Below are positions 8,160 to 34,089 of a stretch of 64,000 nt of DNA, piece by piece (the first letter of the stretch is position 1; each line of letters begins with the position of its first letter). Both the position numbers and the translations under genes were made by a program. The notes under the pieces are model-generated. The model saw only the letters and a list, made by a program, of their open reading frames with translations, ran no database searches and had not been told where the DNA came from. Source of the stretch: Engelhardtia mirabilis (GTDB lineage Bacteria > Planctomycetota > UBA1135 > GCA-002686595). The stretch spans positions 310,001 to 374,000 of the forward strand of contig CP036296.1 in NCBI GenBank assembly GCA_007751255.1, in the 5' to 3' direction.

Positions 8160-9902
8160 ATGAAGGGAACGCTACTCACCCTGGCCTTGGTCGCCCTGGG
8201 CGCACTCCTCTACTCGGTCGCTCGAAGCGGCCGAGGGGCCGACGATCGACGCGCAGCGACGGGCGCGTCTCCAGCCGTCGAGGCGTCCGCAGAGGCGCAG
8301 GGGCCAAGGTCCTTGGCGACCGAGGTCGTTCGCGAGCGCGCTGGAGGAGACGTCTCCACGCTCGATCTGCCCCCTGCGGCGCAAGCGGCCTCGCCCTCGT
8401 CGGTGGTCGTCATTCGCGTCGTGGGCCCCGACGGATCGCCGTCCGTGGCGGAGGTCGGTGTCGTGGGTCTCTCGGCCACAGGTTTCATGACCGAGGTCGA
8501 GTTGGGCCGGACCGACGCCGACGGCATCGCTCTCACCACCCGCGAGGCGCTGACTGGCGGCGTCGAAGTCTTCGCGGGGACGGACTCACTCGTCGGTTGG
8601 ACACGCATCCTCGCGGGTGAGGAGATCGCGGACGAGACCTTGGTGCAGCTTCGTGCGGCGTCCGAGCTCTCGGGCAGGGTCGTCGACCTGCGGGGCTCGC
8701 CGGTCGGCGGGGCCGAAGTCGTCGGCTACCAGTCGAACGCGCCGGCGCCCACGACGGCGGCGATCCTCGCCCAGGAGGCCGACGGCTGGGGCAACCCGCG
8801 TCGGACCACGACCGACCCCGACGGGCGCTTCCGCTTCGGCGCGGTCGACGGGCACTCGCGGTGGTGGGTTCACGGGGTGATCCGGGGTTCCCTCAGCGGC
8901 CCGTTGGCGGAGCCGGCACGACCGGGAGTCCCCGTCGAGCTCGTCCTCCGACCCCTTGCGGCGGCGATGGTGTCGGCGACGACGGACGAGGGTGCTGCAC
9001 TCGCGCTCCGCGGCGGGCTGCAGGTGAAGGGTGGATGCCAAGTCGCCATCCGCCGCGGCGCGCGGGGAATGGTCGCGTCGAACCACCCGCTCCTGCCCCT
9101 GGCGGGGATCGATCCGCTCGAGGTCGATCCGACCGGGACCGGCGGCTGGCCGATCGTGTTGGAGTTCGAGGAACTCCGCGCCGACTTCGCCGCCGAGGTC
9201 GCCCTGGAGCTCGAGCTGCCGGGAACGGAGCGCGTCGAGTCCTCCCTGCGCCTCGCGCCGTTCGCCCAGGTGGGTTGGGAGCTGCTCGACGTGGTCCTGC
9301 CGACGAAGGGCGCAACACAAGAGCAGGGTTCGGTTCGTGTGCAGCTCGCTGGCGCGCGGTCGATCGTGGCTGGGCGGGCCGCCTGCTCCGACGACTGGGC
9401 GTTCACGCTCGAGGGGCTGGGCGGCGCGTCCGATCTGCTCTACGAGCTGACGGCGCTGGACGACGACCAGCTCGTCCAGCGGGTCCCCGCCGGCCGCTAC
9501 CGGGCCGCCTTGCTCTCGGCGCGCGGCATCGAGATCCCGCCGACGGGCCCGCGCGAGATTCGAGTCAGGCCGGGCCCGGCCGCGCTGGTCCGCTTTGACC
9601 CGGGAGTCCTCGGCACCCTCGAGATCGAGCTCGGACCCGACTTCGTCCTCGCGGGCACCCCCGTGCTCGAGCTCGAGACGGCCCAGGGACTGACCCACTG
9701 CTCCTGGTCCGGCGCCAGCACCTGCGTCGACGGACTGCCGCTCGGCCCGTGCACGGTCCGTTGGTTCGGGTCGCCACCCGACGCGCGCCTTCTCGTGCTC
9801 GACGGCGAGCTCCCCATCGCCGAGGGAACGGGCTCCGTCTCCTTCGACATCTCGGCCGACCGACCGGTCACGTCCGTGCGGCTGACCGGGCCCGCGAAGT
9901 GA
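8160..9902 (+). CDS. Membrane-anchored protein with carboxypeptidase-regulatory-like domain
   Basis: This 580-aa protein has one N-terminal hydrophobic helix (about residues 3-22), probably a signal anchor, followed by a low-complexity Ala/Arg linker. Around residues 160-260 a beta-sandwich resembles CarboxypepD_reg domains (SGRVVDLRGSPVGGAEVVGY ... TTDPDGRFRF). Flanking segments show the same kind of short strands (EVGVVGLSATGFMTEVELGRTDADG). No catalytic motif was found. In this lineage such proteins are typically extracytoplasmic and of unknown role. The gene ends 45 bp before the convergent beta-helix gene. Confidence 0.7.
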   Translation: MKGTLLTLALVALGALLYSVARSGRGADDRRAATGASPAVEASAEAQGPRSLATEVVRERAGGDVSTLDLPPAAQAASPSSVVVIRVVGPDGSPSVAEVGVVGLSATGFMTEVELGRTDADGIALTTREALTGGVEVFAGTDSLVGWTRILAGEEIADETLVQLRAASELSGRVVDLRGSPVGGAEVVGYQSNAPAPTTAAILAQEADGWGNPRRTTTDPDGRFRFGAVDGHSRWWVHGVIRGSLSGPLAEPARPGVPVELVLRPLAAAMVSATTDEGAALALRGGLQVKGGCQVAIRRGARGMVASNHPLLPLAGIDPLEVDPTGTGGWPIVLEFEELRADFAAEVALELELPGTERVESSLRLAPFAQVGWELLDVVLPTKGATQEQGSVRVQLAGARSIVAGRAACSDDWAFTLEGLGGASDLLYELTALDDDQLVQRVPAGRYRAALLSARGIEIPPTGPREIRVRPGPAALVRFDPGVLGTLEIELGPDFVLAGTPVLELETAQGLTHCSWSGASTCVDGLPLGPCTVRWFGSPPDARLLVLDGELPIAEGTGSVSFDISADRPVTSVRLTGPAK

Positions 9903-9947: not shown

Positions 9948-11117
9948 TCACTTCAACAGGATCTGCGCGGAGTTCGTGACGAACGAGCCGCCGCCCGCGA
10001 GGGCCACCAGGGCCTGCACGTCGACCTCGATGCCGACGACGGAGGGTCCGGTTGGCGGCGTCACGATCGCGGTGGCGGGGACGTTCTGCCCCTGCAGGAC
10101 GAGCAGCTCCAGCAGGAGTAGCTGGCCGAGGTCCACACGCAGGTTCTCACCCAGGTAGCTCGTCGGGAGGCTGGTGCTGGACCCGGCCGCGACCGCGACG
10201 ACGGCGACGTCGCCCGGTGCACCGAACACGGTCAGCTCGCGGTCCAGATACGGATTGAGCGGGCTGGCGGGGATGGTGGGGCCGACCTGCAGGTAGGGCT
10301 CGGCGGTCGTCAACGGGGGGGTCGGCGCGTCCGAGAAGTCGACTCCGCTCCACGTGAGGTCGAGGGTTCCGCCGAGGACCTGCACCGACGGCACCTGAGT
10401 CAGCGCCGGGGCGAGCGGCGAGGAGGGATCGTAACCTCCGGCGATCTCGTGGTTCGACGAGCCACGAACCGTCAAGCTCGCCGCCCCGTCGAGGACGCGG
10501 ATCGCAGGGCCCGGAGTACCGGATCCGAAGAAGAGGTCGCCGGCGTTCCCCCCGATGATCCGGGTACCCACGGCACTGACCTCCGACTCGCCCGACAGGG
10601 CCAGGCCGGCCGTGCCGTTCTTGGTTTCGGGCGCGATGCCACCGGCGATCCCGCTGCTCACCAAGCTGACCTTGGAGTCGGTCACGGTGAGCGCGGCCAA
10701 CGACGATGAGAAAGCCCCGAAGCCGGCGCGTGTGAGCACGACGTCCGCGCAGCCCTCGATCTCGACGTTGTAGCAGCTCGTCGCGTCCAGCCGTACGCGC
10801 CCGGGTAGGTTGCGCAGCACGAGGTGTTCGACCTGGAGGTCGAGCAGGGTGATGGTCGTCGGCCCGCCCCCGCTGCCATCGACGACCAGACCCGGATGGA
10901 CGATCTTCACGCTCTCGAAGAAACCGACCACGTAGCCGAACAGCTTCAGGTCCTTGGTGATCGTCGTACCCGTGTAGTCGCCGGGCATGAGTTGCAGGAT
11001 GTCCCCGTCGCTCGCCGCTGCGACGGCGGCCGGGAGGTCGGCGAAGTCCGCGGGACCGTCGTCGTCGATGGTCCAGATCTGAGGAGCGAGGGCGAGGGAT
11101 GCGAGGGCGAGCAGCAT
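9948..11117 (-). CDS. Secreted right-handed beta-helix protein (paralogue A)
   Basis: The 389-aa protein starts at ATG 11117 with a short signal peptide (MLLALASLALAP). It begins with the planctomycete-type motif WTIDDDGPADFADLPAAVAAASDGDILQL, shared with DUF1565/pectate-lyase-like proteins in which a scheduled 'event' region precedes a parallel beta-helix. The middle holds strand repeats (LDLQVEHLVLRNL, YNVEIEGCADVVLTRAG, LTVTDSKVSLVSSGI). The last 110 residues are a beta-sandwich ending in SAQILLK. It is a close tandem paralogue of the next gene, 109 bp away; the C-termini (TGPS.. GIEVDVQALVAL .. SFVTN..QI.LK) are nearly superimposable. No catalytic residues of polysaccharide lyases were recognised. 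Upstream in-frame codons were rejected as the start because they precede the signal peptide. Confidence 0.8.
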   Translation of the reverse strand: MLLALASLALAPQIWTIDDDGPADFADLPAAVAAASDGDILQLMPGDYTGTTITKDLKLFGYVVGFFESVKIVHPGLVVDGSGGGPTTITLLDLQVEHLVLRNLPGRVRLDATSCYNVEIEGCADVVLTRAGFGAFSSSLAALTVTDSKVSLVSSGIAGGIAPETKNGTAGLALSGESEVSAVGTRIIGGNAGDLFFGSGTPGPAIRVLDGAASLTVRGSSNHEIAGGYDPSSPLAPALTQVPSVQVLGGTLDLTWSGVDFSDAPTPPLTTAEPYLQVGPTIPASPLNPYLDRELTVFGAPGDVAVVAVAAGSSTSLPTSYLGENLRVDLGQLLLLELLVLQGQNVPATAIVTPPTGPSVVGIEVDVQALVALAGGGSFVTNSAQILLK

Positions 11118-27779: not shown

Positions 27780-27807
27780 GGCGCGCGGGGTTGCGGTGGC
27801 GGGGCGT

Positions 27808-27966
27808 CGGTGGCGCGGGGCGTACGGTGGCGCGGGACGTACGGTGGCGGGACCCTTTGTCCCACCGGCGCGCAACATCGTCGGCAAAGCCGACGGTGTT
27901 GCGCGCCGGTGGGACAAAGGGTCCCGCCACCGTACGTCCCGCGCCACCGTACGTCCCGCGCCACCG
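27808..27966. repeat. Long palindromic element, copy 1
   Basis: Two 78-nt arms (27808-27885 and 27889-27966) are reverse complements with two mismatches and a 3-nt AAA loop. The outer arm part is built from iterated GGGACGTACGGTGGC units. The inner part is GGGACCCTTTGTCCCACCGG followed by a variable segment. It lies between the divergent dsbA-like and padR genes. Related copies are at 33242 and 33934. No transposase or coding potential was seen within it. Confidence 0.92.
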
Positions 27967-28043
27967 ACTGCTCACAAACCACCGCGGCGCAGGGGCTTGG
28001 GCCACCACATCGGATCGCCGGCGACTCCCTTCGGGAATACTCG

Positions 28044-28053
28044 GTATGCATAC
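28044..28053. promoter_or_regulatory. Palindrome GTATGCATAC upstream of padR, possible operator
   Basis: A perfect 10-bp palindrome lies 24 bp before the padR start in an AT-richer stretch (GAATACTCGGTATGCATACGCGGTAAT). PadR-family repressors commonly bind short AT-rich dyads near their own start, so this is a plausible autoregulatory site. Inference only. Confidence 0.45.
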
Positions 28054-28077
28054 GCGGTAATCGTCGCGGAGCAGCCC

Positions 28078-28596
28078 ATGACGATCCGCAACAGCCTCCT
28101 GGCCCTGTTGGCCGAGCAGCCCGCCCACGGCTACGGGCTCAAGTCCGCCTTCGAGCAGCGCACGGCCGGGACCTGGTCCCTGAACGTGGGCCAGGTCTAT
28201 ACCACCCTCACGCGGCTCGAGCGCGACGGCCTGGTCGAGCCCGCGGCGGGCGGCGAGGGCCAGAAGCAGACCTGGCGCATCACCGACGCCGGCCGCACGG
28301 TCCTGCGCGACTGGCTCGACGCGCCGGTCCTGGCCGACCCGCCGCCGCGGGACGAGTTGGTGCTGAAGGTGCTCCTGGCCACGGCCACCGACTCGATCGA
28401 CCTGGGGCCGATCCTGCACTCCCAGCGCGTCGCGACCCTCGAGCGGTTGCAGCGGCTGACGCGGCTCAAGGCCAAGGCCGATCCCGACCAGGAGCTGGCT
28501 TGGACCCTCCTGCTCGACGCGTTGGTGCTCGACGCCCAGGCCCAGATCCAGTGGCTCGACCTGTGCGAGGCGCGCATCGCGGAGCGCGACCGATGA
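28078..28596 (+). CDS. PadR-family transcriptional regulator
   Basis: The 172-aa protein begins with MTIRNSLLALLAEQPAHGYGLKSAFEQRTAG, then WSLNVGQVYTTLTRLERDGLVEPAAGGEGQKQTWRITDAGR, the classic winged-helix core of PadR (PF03551). The C-terminal helical part (Vir_Sens-like dimerisation) follows. ATG 28078 is chosen over upstream in-frame codons that run through the palindrome. It overlaps the ABC ATPase start by 4 bp (ATGA), giving a PadR-ABC-FtsX operon that is typical of drug-responsive efflux under PadR repression. Confidence 0.92.
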   Translation: MTIRNSLLALLAEQPAHGYGLKSAFEQRTAGTWSLNVGQVYTTLTRLERDGLVEPAAGGEGQKQTWRITDAGRTVLRDWLDAPVLADPPPRDELVLKVLLATATDSIDLGPILHSQRVATLERLQRLTRLKAKADPDQELAWTLLLDALVLDAQAQIQWLDLCEARIAERDR

Positions 28597-29321
28597 GCGC
28601 GTCGGACGAGCCCGTGCTCGCGCTCGAGGCCCTCGAGCGCGTCCATGGCAGCGGCGAGCAGGCGGTCCGTGCGCTGGGGCCGATCGACCTGACGGTCGCG
28701 CGCGGTGAGTTCGTCGCCGTGATGGGGCCGTCGGGGTCGGGCAAGTCGACGCTCTTGGCCCTCGCCGGCGCCCTCGACGATCCCACCGGCGGCCGCGTGT
28801 GCGTGCACGGTCACGACCTTGCGCGCCTCTCGGCTCGGGACCTCGCCGCCCTGCGACGGCGCAGCATCGGCTACGTGTTCCAGGACCTGAACCTGCTGCC
28901 GGGCCTGTCCGCCCTCGAGAACGTGGCCCTGCCGCTCGAGCTCGACGGCGTGCGCCAACGGCACGCGCGCGCCGAGGCCCTCGCGACCCTGCAGCGGGTG
29001 CGCATCGACCACCTCGCCGCCCGCTTCCCCGACGACCTCTCCGGCGGCGAGCGCCAGCGGGTCGCCATCGCCCGCGCGATCGTCGGTCCGCGCACGTTGA
29101 TGCTGGCTGACGAGCCCACCGGCGCCCTCGACTCGGTCACCGGCGAACGGGTCATGCGCCTGTTGCGCGGGGCCTGCGACGACGGGCGCTCGGTGGTCCT
29201 GGTGACCCACGACGCGTCCCACGCGGCCTGGGCCGACCGGGTGCTGCACCTGCGCGACGGCCTGTGGTTCGAGCCCGCCGTCGCCGACGCCGCAGCCCGC
29301 TTCGACGGAGTCGGCAGTTGA
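28593..29321 (+). CDS. ABC transporter ATP-binding protein (LolD/MacB type)
   Basis: The 242-aa ATPase contains Walker A GPSGSGKST, Q-loop VFQDLNLLPGLSALENVALPLEL, signature LSGGERQRVAIARAI, Walker B LMLADEPTGALD and H-loop VTHDASHA. The DEPTGALD form is typical of LolD/MacB/FtsE-type exporters that pair with FtsX-like permeases, and one is encoded next. Start ATG 28593 overlaps the padR stop. Confidence 0.95.
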   Translation: MSASDEPVLALEALERVHGSGEQAVRALGPIDLTVARGEFVAVMGPSGSGKSTLLALAGALDDPTGGRVCVHGHDLARLSARDLAALRRRSIGYVFQDLNLLPGLSALENVALPLELDGVRQRHARAEALATLQRVRIDHLAARFPDDLSGGERQRVAIARAIVGPRTLMLADEPTGALDSVTGERVMRLLRGACDDGRSVVLVTHDASHAAWADRVLHLRDGLWFEPAVADAAARFDGVGS

Positions 29322-31729
29322 AGGCCCTGCGAGCCCTGCGCGCCCTGGCGCGGGTGGAGCTGCGCGACCTGGGCCGCCACCGCGGTCGATCGCTGCTGGT
29401 GATCCTGCTCGTGGCCGTGCCGGTCGCGGCCCTGACCGGGGCCGGCGCCCTGGTGCGGACCATGTCGCCCACCTTGGAGGAGCAGCGCGCCGCGCGCTTC
29501 GGGAGCGCCGACCTGCGCGTCGAGTACGGCTCGCCTGAACAGGCGGCCGCGATGCGAGCGAGCCTGGGACCTGGCGCGCGCACCACGACGCTCGGCTACG
29601 GCGTGCTGGCCGCCGGCCAGCGCGGGGCGAAGGTCGATGCCCTGGCTGTCGAGGCCGACCTGAACGACGGTGACCTGGGCCTGTTGACGGGGCTACTGCG
29701 GATCACCGCCGGGCGTGCGCCCGCGGCGCCGGACGAGCTGGCCCTGTCGCCCAACGTGGCGACGGCCCTGGGCGTGGCCCCCGGCGACAGCGTGGACATC
29801 GACGGCCATCGGGGACGAGTCAGTGGTCTGGTGGTCAGTCCGGAGCGCTTGGGCGACCCCATCGTCCTGCGCCCACTGCAGTCGGGTCGTGGCGGAGCGG
29901 GGACGCTCCTGGCCGCCGCGCCCGCGGCCGAACTCGACCGCGCCGTGCGCGGCCTGACCGAACTCGGTGCAAGGCCCGAGCTGCGCGGGGAGCTCGATCC
30001 CGCCGACGGCTTCGAGGCCGCCGTGCTGTTCGTCGTCGGCGGGCTCGGCTTCGTCGAAGCGGCGCTCGTGGTGGCCGCTGCCTTCGCGGTGGGTCTGCGC
30101 CGGCGTCAGCGCGAACTCGGACTGTTGGCGGCCAGCGGTGCCCCCGGTCGACTGCTCGGGCCGGGCCTGCTCGCCGCGCCGTTGGTGCTGGCCCTGCTCG
30201 GCTCGGCTGCAGGGGTCGCCGTGGGCCTCGCCGCGGCGTGGCTCGCCCATCCACTGCTCGACGGCTGGAACCAGCGCCTGAACGGTCCCTTCGAGGTATC
30301 GCTCGCGCACCTGCTGGGCGGCGTGGCGCTCGGCCTGGTGGCCGCGAGCCTGGCGGCGCTGCTCCCGATCTGGACGGCCCTGCGCGTGCCCGTGCGCACG
30401 GCCCTCTCCGGCCGTCGCCCCCCGGCCGGTCGCGCGCGGGGTTGGCTGGCCCTCGGCCTGGCGTTGGTCGTCTCGGGCGTGCTCGTGCTCGCCATCGGGC
30501 TGCGCCTCGAGGGCGCGATCAACGTTGTCGCGATCCTGGCCGGATCCGTCCTGGGGGTGCTCGGCCTGGGCTCGGCGAGTCCGTGGCTGCTCGAGGCCCT
30601 GAGCCGCAGAGCCACGCGCCTGACGCCCGCTTGGCGCCTCGCCGTACGCGACGCCGGCCGCTTCCGCGCGCGCAACGCGCCTGTGGTGACCGCGGTGCTG
30701 GCGGGCCTCTCGGCGAGCCTGTTGCTCGCGGCCCTCTCGTCGAGCGTCGAGGCCTTCGTCGGTCAGGTCGTGCCGACCCTGCGCGCGGACCAGTTGCTGG
30801 TCGAGGGCCCGGGCGCCGGTCGCGTGGCCGCCGAGCTGGCCGCGGAGCTGAACGGCGAGGCCGCGGCGCTGCAAGCAGTGGTGAGCGGCGGGCAACCGGT
30901 CATGGCGCGTCCCTCCGGCGACGGCGGTGGCGCCGGGACCTGGTTGGCCGTCGGCGACGCCGATCTGCTGCGGGCCATGGCGATCGAGGTCGCCGACTTC
31001 GCCGCTAGCGGCGTCGTGTGGCTCCGGCGTCCCGCGGGCGCAGTCGATCACCTGCCCGCCGAGCTCGAGCTGCTGGGCGGGGTCGAAGTCATCGCGCGCC
31101 TGCCCACTCGCACCCTCGACGAAGCGCAGCCGTCGCGCACGCCGCTCGCCCTCTTGCCGGTGGCGATGGTCGAGCAGCTCGGTCTGGAAGTCGGCGCGGC
31201 GCAGCGCGGGCGGCCGGCGCCCTGGATCGTGCGCGCGAGGGGGCCCGTCGACGCGGCCCGCTTCGAGCGGGCGCGCCAGCTCGCGGCCCAGGTGCCGGGC
31301 ACCACCGTCGACGCCGAGCTGCTGCGCACGAACCCCACCCTCTCGACCCTCGCGATCGCCCTGGCCCTGTCCATGGCCACGGGGCTGCTGGTGATCTTCA
31401 TCGCCACGGCCCTCTCCGCCGTGGAGTCCGCCGACGACGCGCGCACCCTCCAAGCGGTCGGCGCGCCGCCGGCGCTGCTGCACGGCACCCAGGCCGCGCG
31501 CGCCGCTTACCTGGCGTTGTTGGGCTCCGCCCTGGCGATCCCGGGCGGATTGCTGCCGGGATTCGGCCTGGTCGAGCTGGCCGAAGTGCCGCTCGAGTTC
31601 GCCCTGCCCTGGCGCGTGATGGCCATCGTCCTGATCGGCATGCCGACCCTCGCCTGGCTGGGCGCTTGGTCGGCGAGTCGAGTGCGTCCGCTGTTCACCG
31701 ATCGTCGGCCACTCGTGGCCGCCGAGTAG
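29318..31729 (+). CDS. FtsX-like ABC transporter permease
   Basis: The 803-aa membrane protein starts at TTG 29318, overlapping the ATPase stop by 4 bp (TTGA). It has an N-terminal helix (RSLLVILLVAVPVAALTGAGAL), a large extracytoplasmic region, then two FtsX-type helix groups around residues 225-340 (LFVVGGLGFVEAALVVAAAFAVGLRRRQRELGLLAASG, typical GA-rich helices) and near the C-terminus. Further helices lie around 385-480. It forms a MacB-like exporter with the preceding ATPase. The substrate is unknown; the PadR regulator suggests response to a small toxic molecule. Confidence 0.9.
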   Translation: MKALRALRALARVELRDLGRHRGRSLLVILLVAVPVAALTGAGALVRTMSPTLEEQRAARFGSADLRVEYGSPEQAAAMRASLGPGARTTTLGYGVLAAGQRGAKVDALAVEADLNDGDLGLLTGLLRITAGRAPAAPDELALSPNVATALGVAPGDSVDIDGHRGRVSGLVVSPERLGDPIVLRPLQSGRGGAGTLLAAAPAAELDRAVRGLTELGARPELRGELDPADGFEAAVLFVVGGLGFVEAALVVAAAFAVGLRRRQRELGLLAASGAPGRLLGPGLLAAPLVLALLGSAAGVAVGLAAAWLAHPLLDGWNQRLNGPFEVSLAHLLGGVALGLVAASLAALLPIWTALRVPVRTALSGRRPPAGRARGWLALGLALVVSGVLVLAIGLRLEGAINVVAILAGSVLGVLGLGSASPWLLEALSRRATRLTPAWRLAVRDAGRFRARNAPVVTAVLAGLSASLLLAALSSSVEAFVGQVVPTLRADQLLVEGPGAGRVAAELAAELNGEAAALQAVVSGGQPVMARPSGDGGGAGTWLAVGDADLLRAMAIEVADFAASGVVWLRRPAGAVDHLPAELELLGGVEVIARLPTRTLDEAQPSRTPLALLPVAMVEQLGLEVGAAQRGRPAPWIVRARGPVDAARFERARQLAAQVPGTTVDAELLRTNPTLSTLAIALALSMATGLLVIFIATALSAVESADDARTLQAVGAPPALLHGTQAARAAYLALLGSALAIPGGLLPGFGLVELAEVPLEFALPWRVMAIVLIGMPTLAWLGAWSASRVRPLFTDRRPLVAAE

Positions 31730-31752
31730 CCCCGATCGAAAGTTACAGACCC

Positions 31753-33225
31753 ATGATCGCGCCCAACCTCACGCTCCTGGCCGCCGCGGCCCTTTCAGCC
31801 TCGCCCCAGGCGTCGAATTCCTTCGGTCTCGAGCTCGAGCCCTACACGGCCTTCGGACCCGGTGGCGTCGAGCTGGTCGGGGAACGTGGACACTTCGACG
31901 TGCCCCTCGACCACGGCGACCCGGACGGCCCGACGCTCGAGCTGGCCTTCGTGCGCTTCCCCAGCACCAATCCGGATCCCGGTCCGCCGATCGTGTTCCT
32001 GGCCGGCGGCCCGGGCGCGTCGGGGATCGACTACTGCGTCGGCCCGGCCGCGGGGCGCACCCTGCGGCTCTTGGACCACGGTGACGTGATCGGCCTCGAC
32101 CAGCGCGGCACCGGGCAGAGCGAGCCCGACTTCGACGCCGGACCGCAGTTCGTGGTCGAGCTGGATCCCGGGCGGGTCTACACCCGCGACGAGATCGGCG
32201 TGGCCTACGCCGAGCTCGTCGGGCGCGCCGCCGACCACTGGCGCGAAGCCGGCTTCGACCTGGCGCACTTCAACACCACCCAGAACGCCGCCGACGTGGA
32301 CGCCCTGCGCCGGGCGCTGGGGCTGGAGCAGATCGTGCTCTACGGCTCGAGCTACGGCTCGCACCTGGGTCTCGAAGTCCTGCGCCGTCACCCCGACGGC
32401 GTGGCCCGCGCGCTGCTCGGCAAGGTCGAGGGTCCGGACCAGACCTACAAGCTGCCGAGCACGACCCAGCGCTTCCTGGAGCAGCTCGGTGAGCTGGTGC
32501 GCGCGGACCCGGGCGTCGCGGAGCAGATGCCGGACCTGGTGGGGACGGTCGCGAAGCTGTTGACGCAGCTAGAAGAAGAGCCGGCCCTGGTCGAGGTGGA
32601 GCGCAATGGCGAGGCGCTGCGCGTGCTGGTCAGCGCCTTGGACCTGCGCACGATGATCGCCGAGAGCCTGGGCCTGGCCTTCAGCATCGTCGAGCTGCCG
32701 GCCCAGATCGCCGCCCTGGCCGCCGGGGACTGGAGTTCGATGGGGGACTACACCCTGTCCAATCGGCGCCTCGAAGTTTGGTCACCGATGGCGATCGCCA
32801 TGGACTGCGCCTCGGGCGCTTCCAAGCGCCGCGCGGCACAGATCCGGCGCGAGCGCCGCGACCCCGCCAACCTCTTGAGTGACGCGGTCAACGGTCCCTA
32901 TCCGGACCTGTGTGAGTCCTGCGGTGCCGGCGACGTGGGAGACGACTTTCGCAAGGGCGCGCGGTGTGAAGTGCCGGTGCTGTTCGTCAGCGGGACCATC
33001 GACGCGCGCACGCCGCCAGCGAACGTGGAAGAGATCCTCGAGCACTTCCCCGCTGCCGTGCACGTGATCTGTCAGAACGCCGGCCACGAGCCGATCGAGA
33101 TCCTCTCGCGCGAGTACGTGGACCTGGCGCGGGCGTTTCTGGACGGCGAGGCGGTCGAGAGCGTCACGCTGGAGCTACCCCAGCCGCGCTTCAAGCCGAT
33201 CGAGGTCGTGCGAGAAGAGCCGTAG
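31753..33225 (+). CDS. Secreted alpha/beta hydrolase, proline-iminopeptidase/TAP-like
   Basis: The 490-aa protein has a signal peptide (LTLLAAAALSASPQA). The core has the oxyanion loop LAGGPGASG at 83-91, LDQRGTGQSE from 115, nucleophile GSSYG at 198-202 (Ser200), then Asp in SGTIDARTPPAN and His in NAGHEP. The GGPGxSG and DQRGTG motifs with a TAP-like C-terminus are typical of tripeptidyl or prolyl aminopeptidases (S33). A pair of cysteines (LCESCGAG) occurs before the TAP-like part. It probably trims peptides outside the cytoplasm. It follows the permease by 23 bp. Confidence 0.88.
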   Translation: MIAPNLTLLAAAALSASPQASNSFGLELEPYTAFGPGGVELVGERGHFDVPLDHGDPDGPTLELAFVRFPSTNPDPGPPIVFLAGGPGASGIDYCVGPAAGRTLRLLDHGDVIGLDQRGTGQSEPDFDAGPQFVVELDPGRVYTRDEIGVAYAELVGRAADHWREAGFDLAHFNTTQNAADVDALRRALGLEQIVLYGSSYGSHLGLEVLRRHPDGVARALLGKVEGPDQTYKLPSTTQRFLEQLGELVRADPGVAEQMPDLVGTVAKLLTQLEEEPALVEVERNGEALRVLVSALDLRTMIAESLGLAFSIVELPAQIAALAAGDWSSMGDYTLSNRRLEVWSPMAIAMDCASGASKRRAAQIRRERRDPANLLSDAVNGPYPDLCESCGAGDVGDDFRKGARCEVPVLFVSGTIDARTPPANVEEILEHFPAAVHVICQNAGHEPIEILSREYVDLARAFLDGEAVESVTLELPQPRFKPIEVVREEP

Positions 33226-33241
33226 CGTGTCGTGGGACGTA

Positions 33242-33385
33242 CGGTGGCTGGACGTACGGTTGGACGTACGGTGGCGGGACCATTTGTCCCACCGGGCGCA
33301 GTATCGCCGGCAAAGCCGGCGATACTGCGCGCCGGTGGGACAAATGGTCCCGCCACCGTACGTCCAACCGTACGTCCCACCACCG
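33242..33385. repeat. Long palindromic element, copy 2
   Basis: Arms 33242-33311 and 33315-33385 are reverse complements except for a few positions and a 1-nt indel (CCGGGCGC in the left arm, CCGGCGCGC in the complement of the right), with an AAA loop. Same construction as copy 1, with GTACGGTTGGACGTACGGTGGC units outside and GGGACCATTTGTCCC inside. It lies between the peptidase stop and the small secreted-protein gene. An extra GGGACGTACGG unit precedes it from 33234. Confidence 0.92.
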
Positions 33386-33407
33386 TGTCCCGCTGCGCTC
33401 GCTCGCC

Positions 33408-33911
33408 ATGTCCAACCTCCTCGTGTTGGCGTCCCTCCTTACGCCGCTTGCCATTCCTTCCCCCGTTGCTCCGCCCGGCCAGGCCACGACCCTCGGTGGC
33501 GGCTGCCAATCCCAATTCACCTCGTCCGAGTACAACGGCTCGGGAGTCAACCCGGACATCCTGGACAGCGCCTTTGGGCCGTTCATCGTGCCGGGTTTCA
33601 CCGGTTCTTGGGATACCTGCACCGACTTCTCAGCCTTCACGCCTGGCAGCCTGGCGATTCTCGCCGTCGGCTTCGGCGCGACTAGCGGCATCGTCCTCGA
33701 CGGCGGCGAGATCCTCGTCGACCCGACGCTCCCGACGATCAATTACTTCTACTTCATCGGCGGTGCGGAGCTCGAGTGCCTGTCGCCCGGGATCACCTAC
33801 GATCCCGTGCTCTGTGGGCTCGACGTCTATGCCCAGTGGGTCATCTTCGACGGGTTGCCGGCCGGCTACACGCTGACCAACGCGATTCACGGCACGATCG
33901 GCTCGGTCTGA
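33408..33911 (+). CDS. Small secreted protein, unknown function
   Basis: The 167-aa protein has a signal peptide (LLVLASLLTPLAIPSPVAP). The mature part is beta-rich with four cysteines (GGGCQS, WDTCTD, LECLSP, VLCGLD) that could form two disulfides. I recognise no family. It is the only gene between palindrome copies 2 and 3, which lie in opposite orientation, and starts 22 bp after copy 2. It could be a passenger of a composite element, or an ordinary exoprotein. Confidence 0.65.
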   Translation: MSNLLVLASLLTPLAIPSPVAPPGQATTLGGGCQSQFTSSEYNGSGVNPDILDSAFGPFIVPGFTGSWDTCTDFSAFTPGSLAILAVGFGATSGIVLDGGEILVDPTLPTINYFYFIGGAELECLSPGITYDPVLCGLDVYAQWVIFDGLPAGYTLTNAIHGTIGSV

Positions 33912-33933
33912 GTCGACTTGCTATCGGGACGTA

Positions 33934-34081
33934 CGGTGGCGTGGGACGTACGGTTGGACGTACGGTGGCGGGATCATTTGTCCCACCGGCGCGCAGTATC
34001 GCCGGCTTTGCCGGCGATACTGCGCCCGGTGGGACAAATGATCCCGCCACCGTACGTCCAACCGTACGTCCCACGCCACCG
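33934..34081. repeat. Long palindromic element, copy 3 (inverted relative to copy 2)
   Basis: Arms 33934-34006 and 34010-34081 are reverse complements except for one 1-nt indel, with a TTT loop. Its core is the reverse complement of that in copy 2: the shorter GGGCGC side is in the right arm and the loop is TTT rather than AAA. One base pair differs from copy 2 on both arms (GATCATTTG/CAAATGATC). It ends 8 bp before the start of the methyltransferase gene. Confidence 0.92.
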
Positions 34082-34089
34082 CACACGCC

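Follow-up and report, generated by a model that had tools for sequence, protein, structure and literature searches.

The window analysed here is a 64,000-nucleotide stretch of the Engelhardtia mirabilis genome (contig CP036296.1, positions 310,001 to 374,000, forward strand), and it is part of a genome of 6.95 Mb in two contigs. Three long palindromes are located in the window. The first-pass annotation of this DNA had reported them; all three are present at those sites, and each is a little longer than reported. Every arm carries a unit resembling the repetitive extragenic palindromic (REP) sequences. The features are listed below by window position.

27806-27968, no strand, family-A palindrome 1: arms 27806-27885 and 27889-27968, 80 nt, 98% complementary, loop AAA; divergent genes on either side
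33241-33386, no strand, family-A palindrome 2: arms of 71 and 72 nt, loop AAA; tandem genes on either side
33931-34084, no strand, family-A palindrome 3: arms of 76 and 75 nt, loop TTT; tandem genes on either side
27839-27868, + strand, REP-like unit in the left arm of palindrome 1: GTAC foot, then a bulged stem-loop
27906-27935, - strand, REP-like unit in the right arm of palindrome 1, inverted
33266-33295, + strand, REP-like unit in the left arm of palindrome 2
33332-33361, - strand, REP-like unit in the right arm of palindrome 2, inverted
33960-33989, + strand, REP-like unit in the left arm of palindrome 3
34026-34055, - strand, REP-like unit in the right arm of palindrome 3, inverted
33408-33911, + strand, small gene of 167 aa, given as context, with palindrome 2 on one side and palindrome 3 on the other

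Palindromes 2 and 3 each have one 1-nt asymmetry near the centre. Their common interior is present in mirror image: the asymmetry is located on opposite arms, and the loops are AAA and TTT, respectively. Palindrome 3 occupies 154 of the 178 bases of its intergenic gap, and a start codon follows 5 bases past its end. All three palindromes lie between genes predicted by codon usage, in agreement with the earlier description of them as intergenic. The accompanying claim of no coding potential holds in so far as no gene called by codon usage in the window crosses a palindrome; open frames do cross them.

The outer motif CGTACGGTGSC was found 119 times on the + strand and 116 times on the - strand of the genome, and 0 and 1 times in the reversed control. 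Thus, the palindromes are not a product of chance. Family A, defined by GTACGGTGSCGSGAYC, gave 50 and 51 matches genome-wide (0 and 0 in the reversed control), and following the outer motif led to a second family, B, with the core GGCGTTCGTACGGTGCCAGGCAC. At least 76 distinct elements were parsed from the fetched genome stretches, 46 of family A and 30 of family B. This count is a lower bound, as identical copies were counted once and stretches of the genome, not the whole, were read. The first-pass figure of three copies is accordingly far too low, and the possibility it had named, that the genome holds no further copies, is excluded. Family-B units also occur alone. Seven of these solo units have the form GTAG...CTAC (38-57 nt), and most solo B units, as judged by eye, are set in a short inverted repeat of unique flanking DNA.

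The palindromes are built of two inverted copies of a conserved unit around a self-complementary interior that varies between copies. The family-A unit, one example of which was folded, has a GTAC foot followed by a bulged stem-loop. A separate palindrome scan yielded 76 entries; two elements were counted twice (L034 and L140 overlap; L numbers denote fetched sequence stretches, and G numbers denote other genomes searched), and 8 of the other 74 show their arms in part only. Mismatches affect 48 of 4555 arm pairs, and the loop is 3 nt long in 70 of the 76 entries. The arms are mostly 46-86 nt long, and the hairpins reach 175 nt. Within an element, the arms diverge by 0.9% in family A (identical in 27 of 46) and by 1.9% in family B (identical in 12 of 30). 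Between copies, the divergence over the same stretch is 16% and 10.9%, respectively (300 sampled pairs per family, mismatches only, gaps excluded). These results indicate that the two arms of an element evolve together or were born together.

The first-pass annotation had proposed looking for a partner transposase. At L033, a predicted gene for a REP-associated Y1 transposase (RAYT) was found between two near-identical family-A palindromes, located 79 and 6 bases from the open reading frame. The predicted protein agrees with the TnpA_REP fold, and both class-2 motifs defined for TnpA_REP (PMC6006769) are intact, the HuH motif as H60-F-H62 and the Y---NP motif as Y119-IDA-N123-P124. H60, H62 and Y119 are invariant across 32 sequences and N123 is nearly so; P124 varies among the homologs. 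The named homologs, among the 120 listed, belong to Planctomycetota. The protein scores under the family cut-offs (53.9 bits against 80 for NCBIfam NF047646, 16.7 bits against 23 for Pfam PF01797), and is therefore regarded as a divergent relative. A search of this genome with PF01797 accordingly gave 0 matches. At the position where the structure 4er8 has W-Q, the protein has V-R; the W-Q pair is taken to be W94-Q95, which is conserved in the GTAG-associated subclasses (PMC6006769). A DnaA-like domain is present at the C-terminus, as in the tail of subclass 2.1 (RAYT group 1). According to tail, motif and length, the predicted protein is provisionally assigned to TnpA_Y1 subclass 2.1.

Family A resembles the REPIN/REPtron systems (PMC3116915, PMC8266576) in its hairpin-capable inverted doublet of a conserved unit, its many intergenic copies, its compensatory arm changes, the bulged stem of its unit, and a class-2 Y1 gene flanked by copies. 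It differs in the arms, which are mostly long, nearly perfect and usually closed by a 3-nt loop, in the GTAC foot, and in the V-R pair and DnaA-like domain of the RAYT. As the foot is GTAC, family A is named REPIN-like and not a GTAG REPIN. TIRtrons with their TIRYT genes (PMC3733652) are likewise Y1 genes flanked by long inverted repeats (TIRs), with a C-terminal DnaA-like or helix-turn-helix domain, and some TIR families are repeated and self-complementary. TIRYT probably corresponds to subclass 2.1, that is, RAYT group 1 (PMC6006769). The GGGGWSAS majority consensus of TIRtrons, however, is missing from both palindromes flanking the RAYT (5 exact matches in L033, 3.6 expected by chance). 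IS200/IS605 elements (IS608, ISDra2) carry the class-1 motif Y---Q (PMC6006769) instead of Y---NP, and are multi-copy insertion sequences, whereas many small gene-less copies are found here. Miniature inverted-repeat transposable elements (MITEs) of DDE transposons are also small, intergenic, gene-less and bounded by inverted repeats. Unlike these, the palindromes are without target-site duplication: in 66 elements, the direct repeats bordering the element are no longer than in swapped controls. The lack of a target duplication fits Y1 enzymes.

Ten Rfam matches, to nine microRNA models and one small-RNA model, were all under the gathering score; these models fit a perfect hairpin, and the identities were rejected. 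In the part of the matching literature that was looked at, the string GTACGGTGCC occurs in animal or human studies without sign of a repeat family. Thus, no exact match to a known MITE or REP family was found in Rfam or this literature, and the first-pass statement that the palindromes match no known family stands at the level of sequence for the searches made. Their kind (REPIN, REPtron or TIRtron) is already known.

Copies were then compared with other genomes. A BLAST search of 40 relatives with one complete element gave no copy, because the interiors differ, and an exact scan of a genome contigs collection, which may omit this genome, gave 0 matches to the family-B core. The motif is clearly enriched over the reversed control in 3 of 60 other genomes: G004 (26/23 against 6/2), G043 (17/15 against 0/1) and G025 (43/37 against 8/3). 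Their palindromes share GTACGGTGCC near the outer end, and their insides differ. G061 belongs to the same genus as G004 and carries a related set of its own. Thirteen G004 sites, part of the elements fetched (33 and a longer-loop one at L174:11871), were compared with G061. At ten of them, motif and palindrome are missing in G061, and three share the element; conversely, G004 lacks one G061 element at the corresponding point. In G061, a RAYT 44% identical to that of E. mirabilis adjoins one palindrome, and none was found on its other side. A different RAYT, in G025, has short perfect palindromes on either side.

The genomic placement was examined for the 74 scan entries. Gaps between convergent, tandem and divergent genes hold 31, 31 and 12 entries, and among 136 control gaps of at least 60 bases the numbers are 18, 77 and 41. 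In 12 of the 74 entries a predicted gene end is overlapped by 3-56 bases. Alternatively, selection could have preserved the palindromes as RNA or DNA structures that benefit neighbouring genes, chiefly by terminating transcription in both directions or by stabilising 3' ends. The enrichment between convergent genes agrees with this, and for 25 of the 31 convergent copies a predicted stop codon is overlapped or no more than 20 bases away. A similar bias to convergent and unidirectional gaps is, however, reported for REPs (PMC3733652). In addition, 12 copies, palindrome 1 of the window included, lie between divergent genes, no T-run borders any of the three window hairpins, and copies are missing at most comparable sites of the congener. 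Arm mismatches show no G-T excess (12 G-T and 16 A-C, the strand being arbitrary). We therefore consider a structural role of this kind quite improbable. Five gene families recur beside copies at three or more loci; they are widespread types, for example ABC ATPases and dehydrogenases.

Neighbouring copies are related. Among 40 family-A elements, five pairs lie within 5 kb, palindromes 2 and 3 and the RAYT-flanking pair being two of them, and in all five the identity of the interiors is at least 0.95. Of 775 far pairs, 0.4% reach 0.9 or more. Palindrome pairs with the same interior, 0.3-2.8 kb apart (L023, L027, L053 and window 33241-34084), in some cases enclose whole genes and resemble composite units.

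Arm changes were compared at sites shared by the congeners. Between L174:11871 and L187:10009, there are three arm differences, and two of them appear on both arms. The 29-nt spacer has an identity of 0.86 when inverted and 0.55 when compared directly; in 16 G061 copies, the wrong-orientation identity never exceeds 0.62. Between L159 and L205/L207, a comparison split across two G061 contigs, all four arm differences appear on both arms. Homogenised arms and inverted spacers are known outcomes of template switching between the arms of an inverted repeat (PMC8604942), and this process fits the arm and spacer changes seen here. Complementarity also extends past the conserved ends into unique DNA. 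Its mean length is 7.3 bp in family B of this genome (n = 28; 1.6 bp in swapped controls), 3.0 bp in 15 GATC-ended G004 copies (0.8 bp) and 3.25 bp in 16 G061 copies (1.6 bp), and it is small in 7 GGTT-ended G004 copies (1.4 against 1.1 bp). The family-A figure (6.8 against 1.0 bp) was set aside, because the flanks there include repeated units. Near-perfect arms, spacer inversion and complementary unique flanks would also be expected of mutation products, that is, fold-back inverted duplications grown by template switching and never transposed. The unit sequence, however, is conserved at unlinked sites and across genera, and copying between places is therefore needed. An origin by mutation alone is thus very improbable.

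According to these results, the palindromes are a dispersed family of at least 76 copies and likely REPIN-like non-autonomous elements, which the RAYT is predicted to cut and join as folded single-stranded DNA. We give this reading a probability of roughly 0.78. Among the roles proposed in the first-pass annotation, the non-autonomous mobile element is the best supported, by the dispersed copies, the presence and absence between congeners and the REP-type transposase gene between copies. The RAYT would bind the unit and process it, probably while it is single-stranded during replication, and this processing would give local and distant copies. With less confidence, we presume that DNA-polymerase template switching inside the hairpin homogenises the arms; the same process would invert the spacer and carry complementarity on into the unique flanking DNA.

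Several observations weigh against this reading. The evidence for mobility is the presence and absence between congeners, and movement and enzyme activity are predicted from sequence. Five of the 13 sites compared (L158:12609, L165:9602, L166, L167 and L169) show differences in other DNA as well as in the element. The spacer inversion comes from one orthologous pair, and the shared-site differences may derive from separate insertion events, or from replacement, at one site. The complementary flanks could instead reflect insertion into existing hairpins, and REPs inserted within small palindromes are described (PMC3733652). A plain sequence search of the PDB with the RAYT gave no match to 4er8. 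The GTAC foot of family A is not the GTAG/GTGG foot of REPINs, and of 28 family-B palindromes, only 14 have GTAG at the left outer foot and 15 at the right. Single B units and G004 units fold no better than shuffles, and in the sole close B-B pair (L142) the interiors are not alike. The Pfam model gave no RAYT for many-copy G004, but it also missed the RAYT of E. mirabilis.

The partner enzyme could also be another, undetected transposase, the RAYT lying between two copies by coincidence. One RAYT was found for more than 200 motif matches, none was found beside family B in the fetched stretches, and the GTACGG motif is absent from 20 Y1 loci of G043, G025 and G001, some of them cut by contig ends. 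The Y1 copies of these three genomes are thus not supported as partners of the GTACGG units. The copies at the RAYT, on the other hand, are near-identical and close to the reading frame as in described REPtrons, the RAYTs of G061 and G025 also adjoin palindromes, and the lack of target duplication fits a Y1 enzyme. We regard another transposase as unlikely.

Returning to the REPIN-like reading, the predicted enzyme with a DnaA-like tail lies inside a palindrome family of at least 46 copies, whereas a survey (PMC6006769) reports no REP-like sequences near genes of subclass 2.1. Its substrate is therefore directly testable. A wider proposal, which we hold tentatively and at somewhat below even odds, is that DnaA-tailed RAYTs (subclass 2.1, group 1) do have REP partners, namely very long near-perfect two-unit hairpins. 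Template switching would keep these perfect, homogenising the arms, flipping the spacer and growing the palindrome into unique flanks; the tail would take the place of GTAG reading in substrate recognition, and one enzyme may serve both families. Perfect dimers are suggested to be removed by SbcCD-type nucleases (PMC3733652). In length and perfection, the present hairpins exceed the dimers for which survival is usually expected, and the question is how the lineage keeps them. The two unit families, the solo units and the presence and absence between congeners provide a natural record in which the homogenisation of arms and the flipping of spacers can be followed.

Further observations concern the related genomes. 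G025 has 52 Y1_Tnp matches (13 in the next highest of 61 genomes), and the 9 copies fetched are without a nearby GTACGG. In G061, a RAYT and its palindrome (L182:8861-10217) lie between 100-bp direct repeats (8861-8960 and 10118-10217, 96% identical); the second repeat overlaps the palindrome end, and the whole looks as if inserted with a long duplication. In G004, a direct duplicate of at least 46 bp, often part of a neighbouring gene, is present within 1.5 kb of 12 of 33 palindromes (for example L160:9964-10500, L177:9984-11400, L175:12271-13076, L158 and L170). In E. mirabilis, a nearby direct duplicate, counted only over 60 bp, is present for 6 of 66. As seen by eye, an element of about 380 bp in G043 (L107, 1440-1940) has GTACGGTGCC ends and long internal complementary arms, and apparently sits between two convergent genes, with a stop codon on either side. 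In G031, a pair of near-identical palindromes, each about 50 nt long with a TTC loop (L238, 929-979 and 1208-1256), lies near another Y1 gene, with both members downstream of it.
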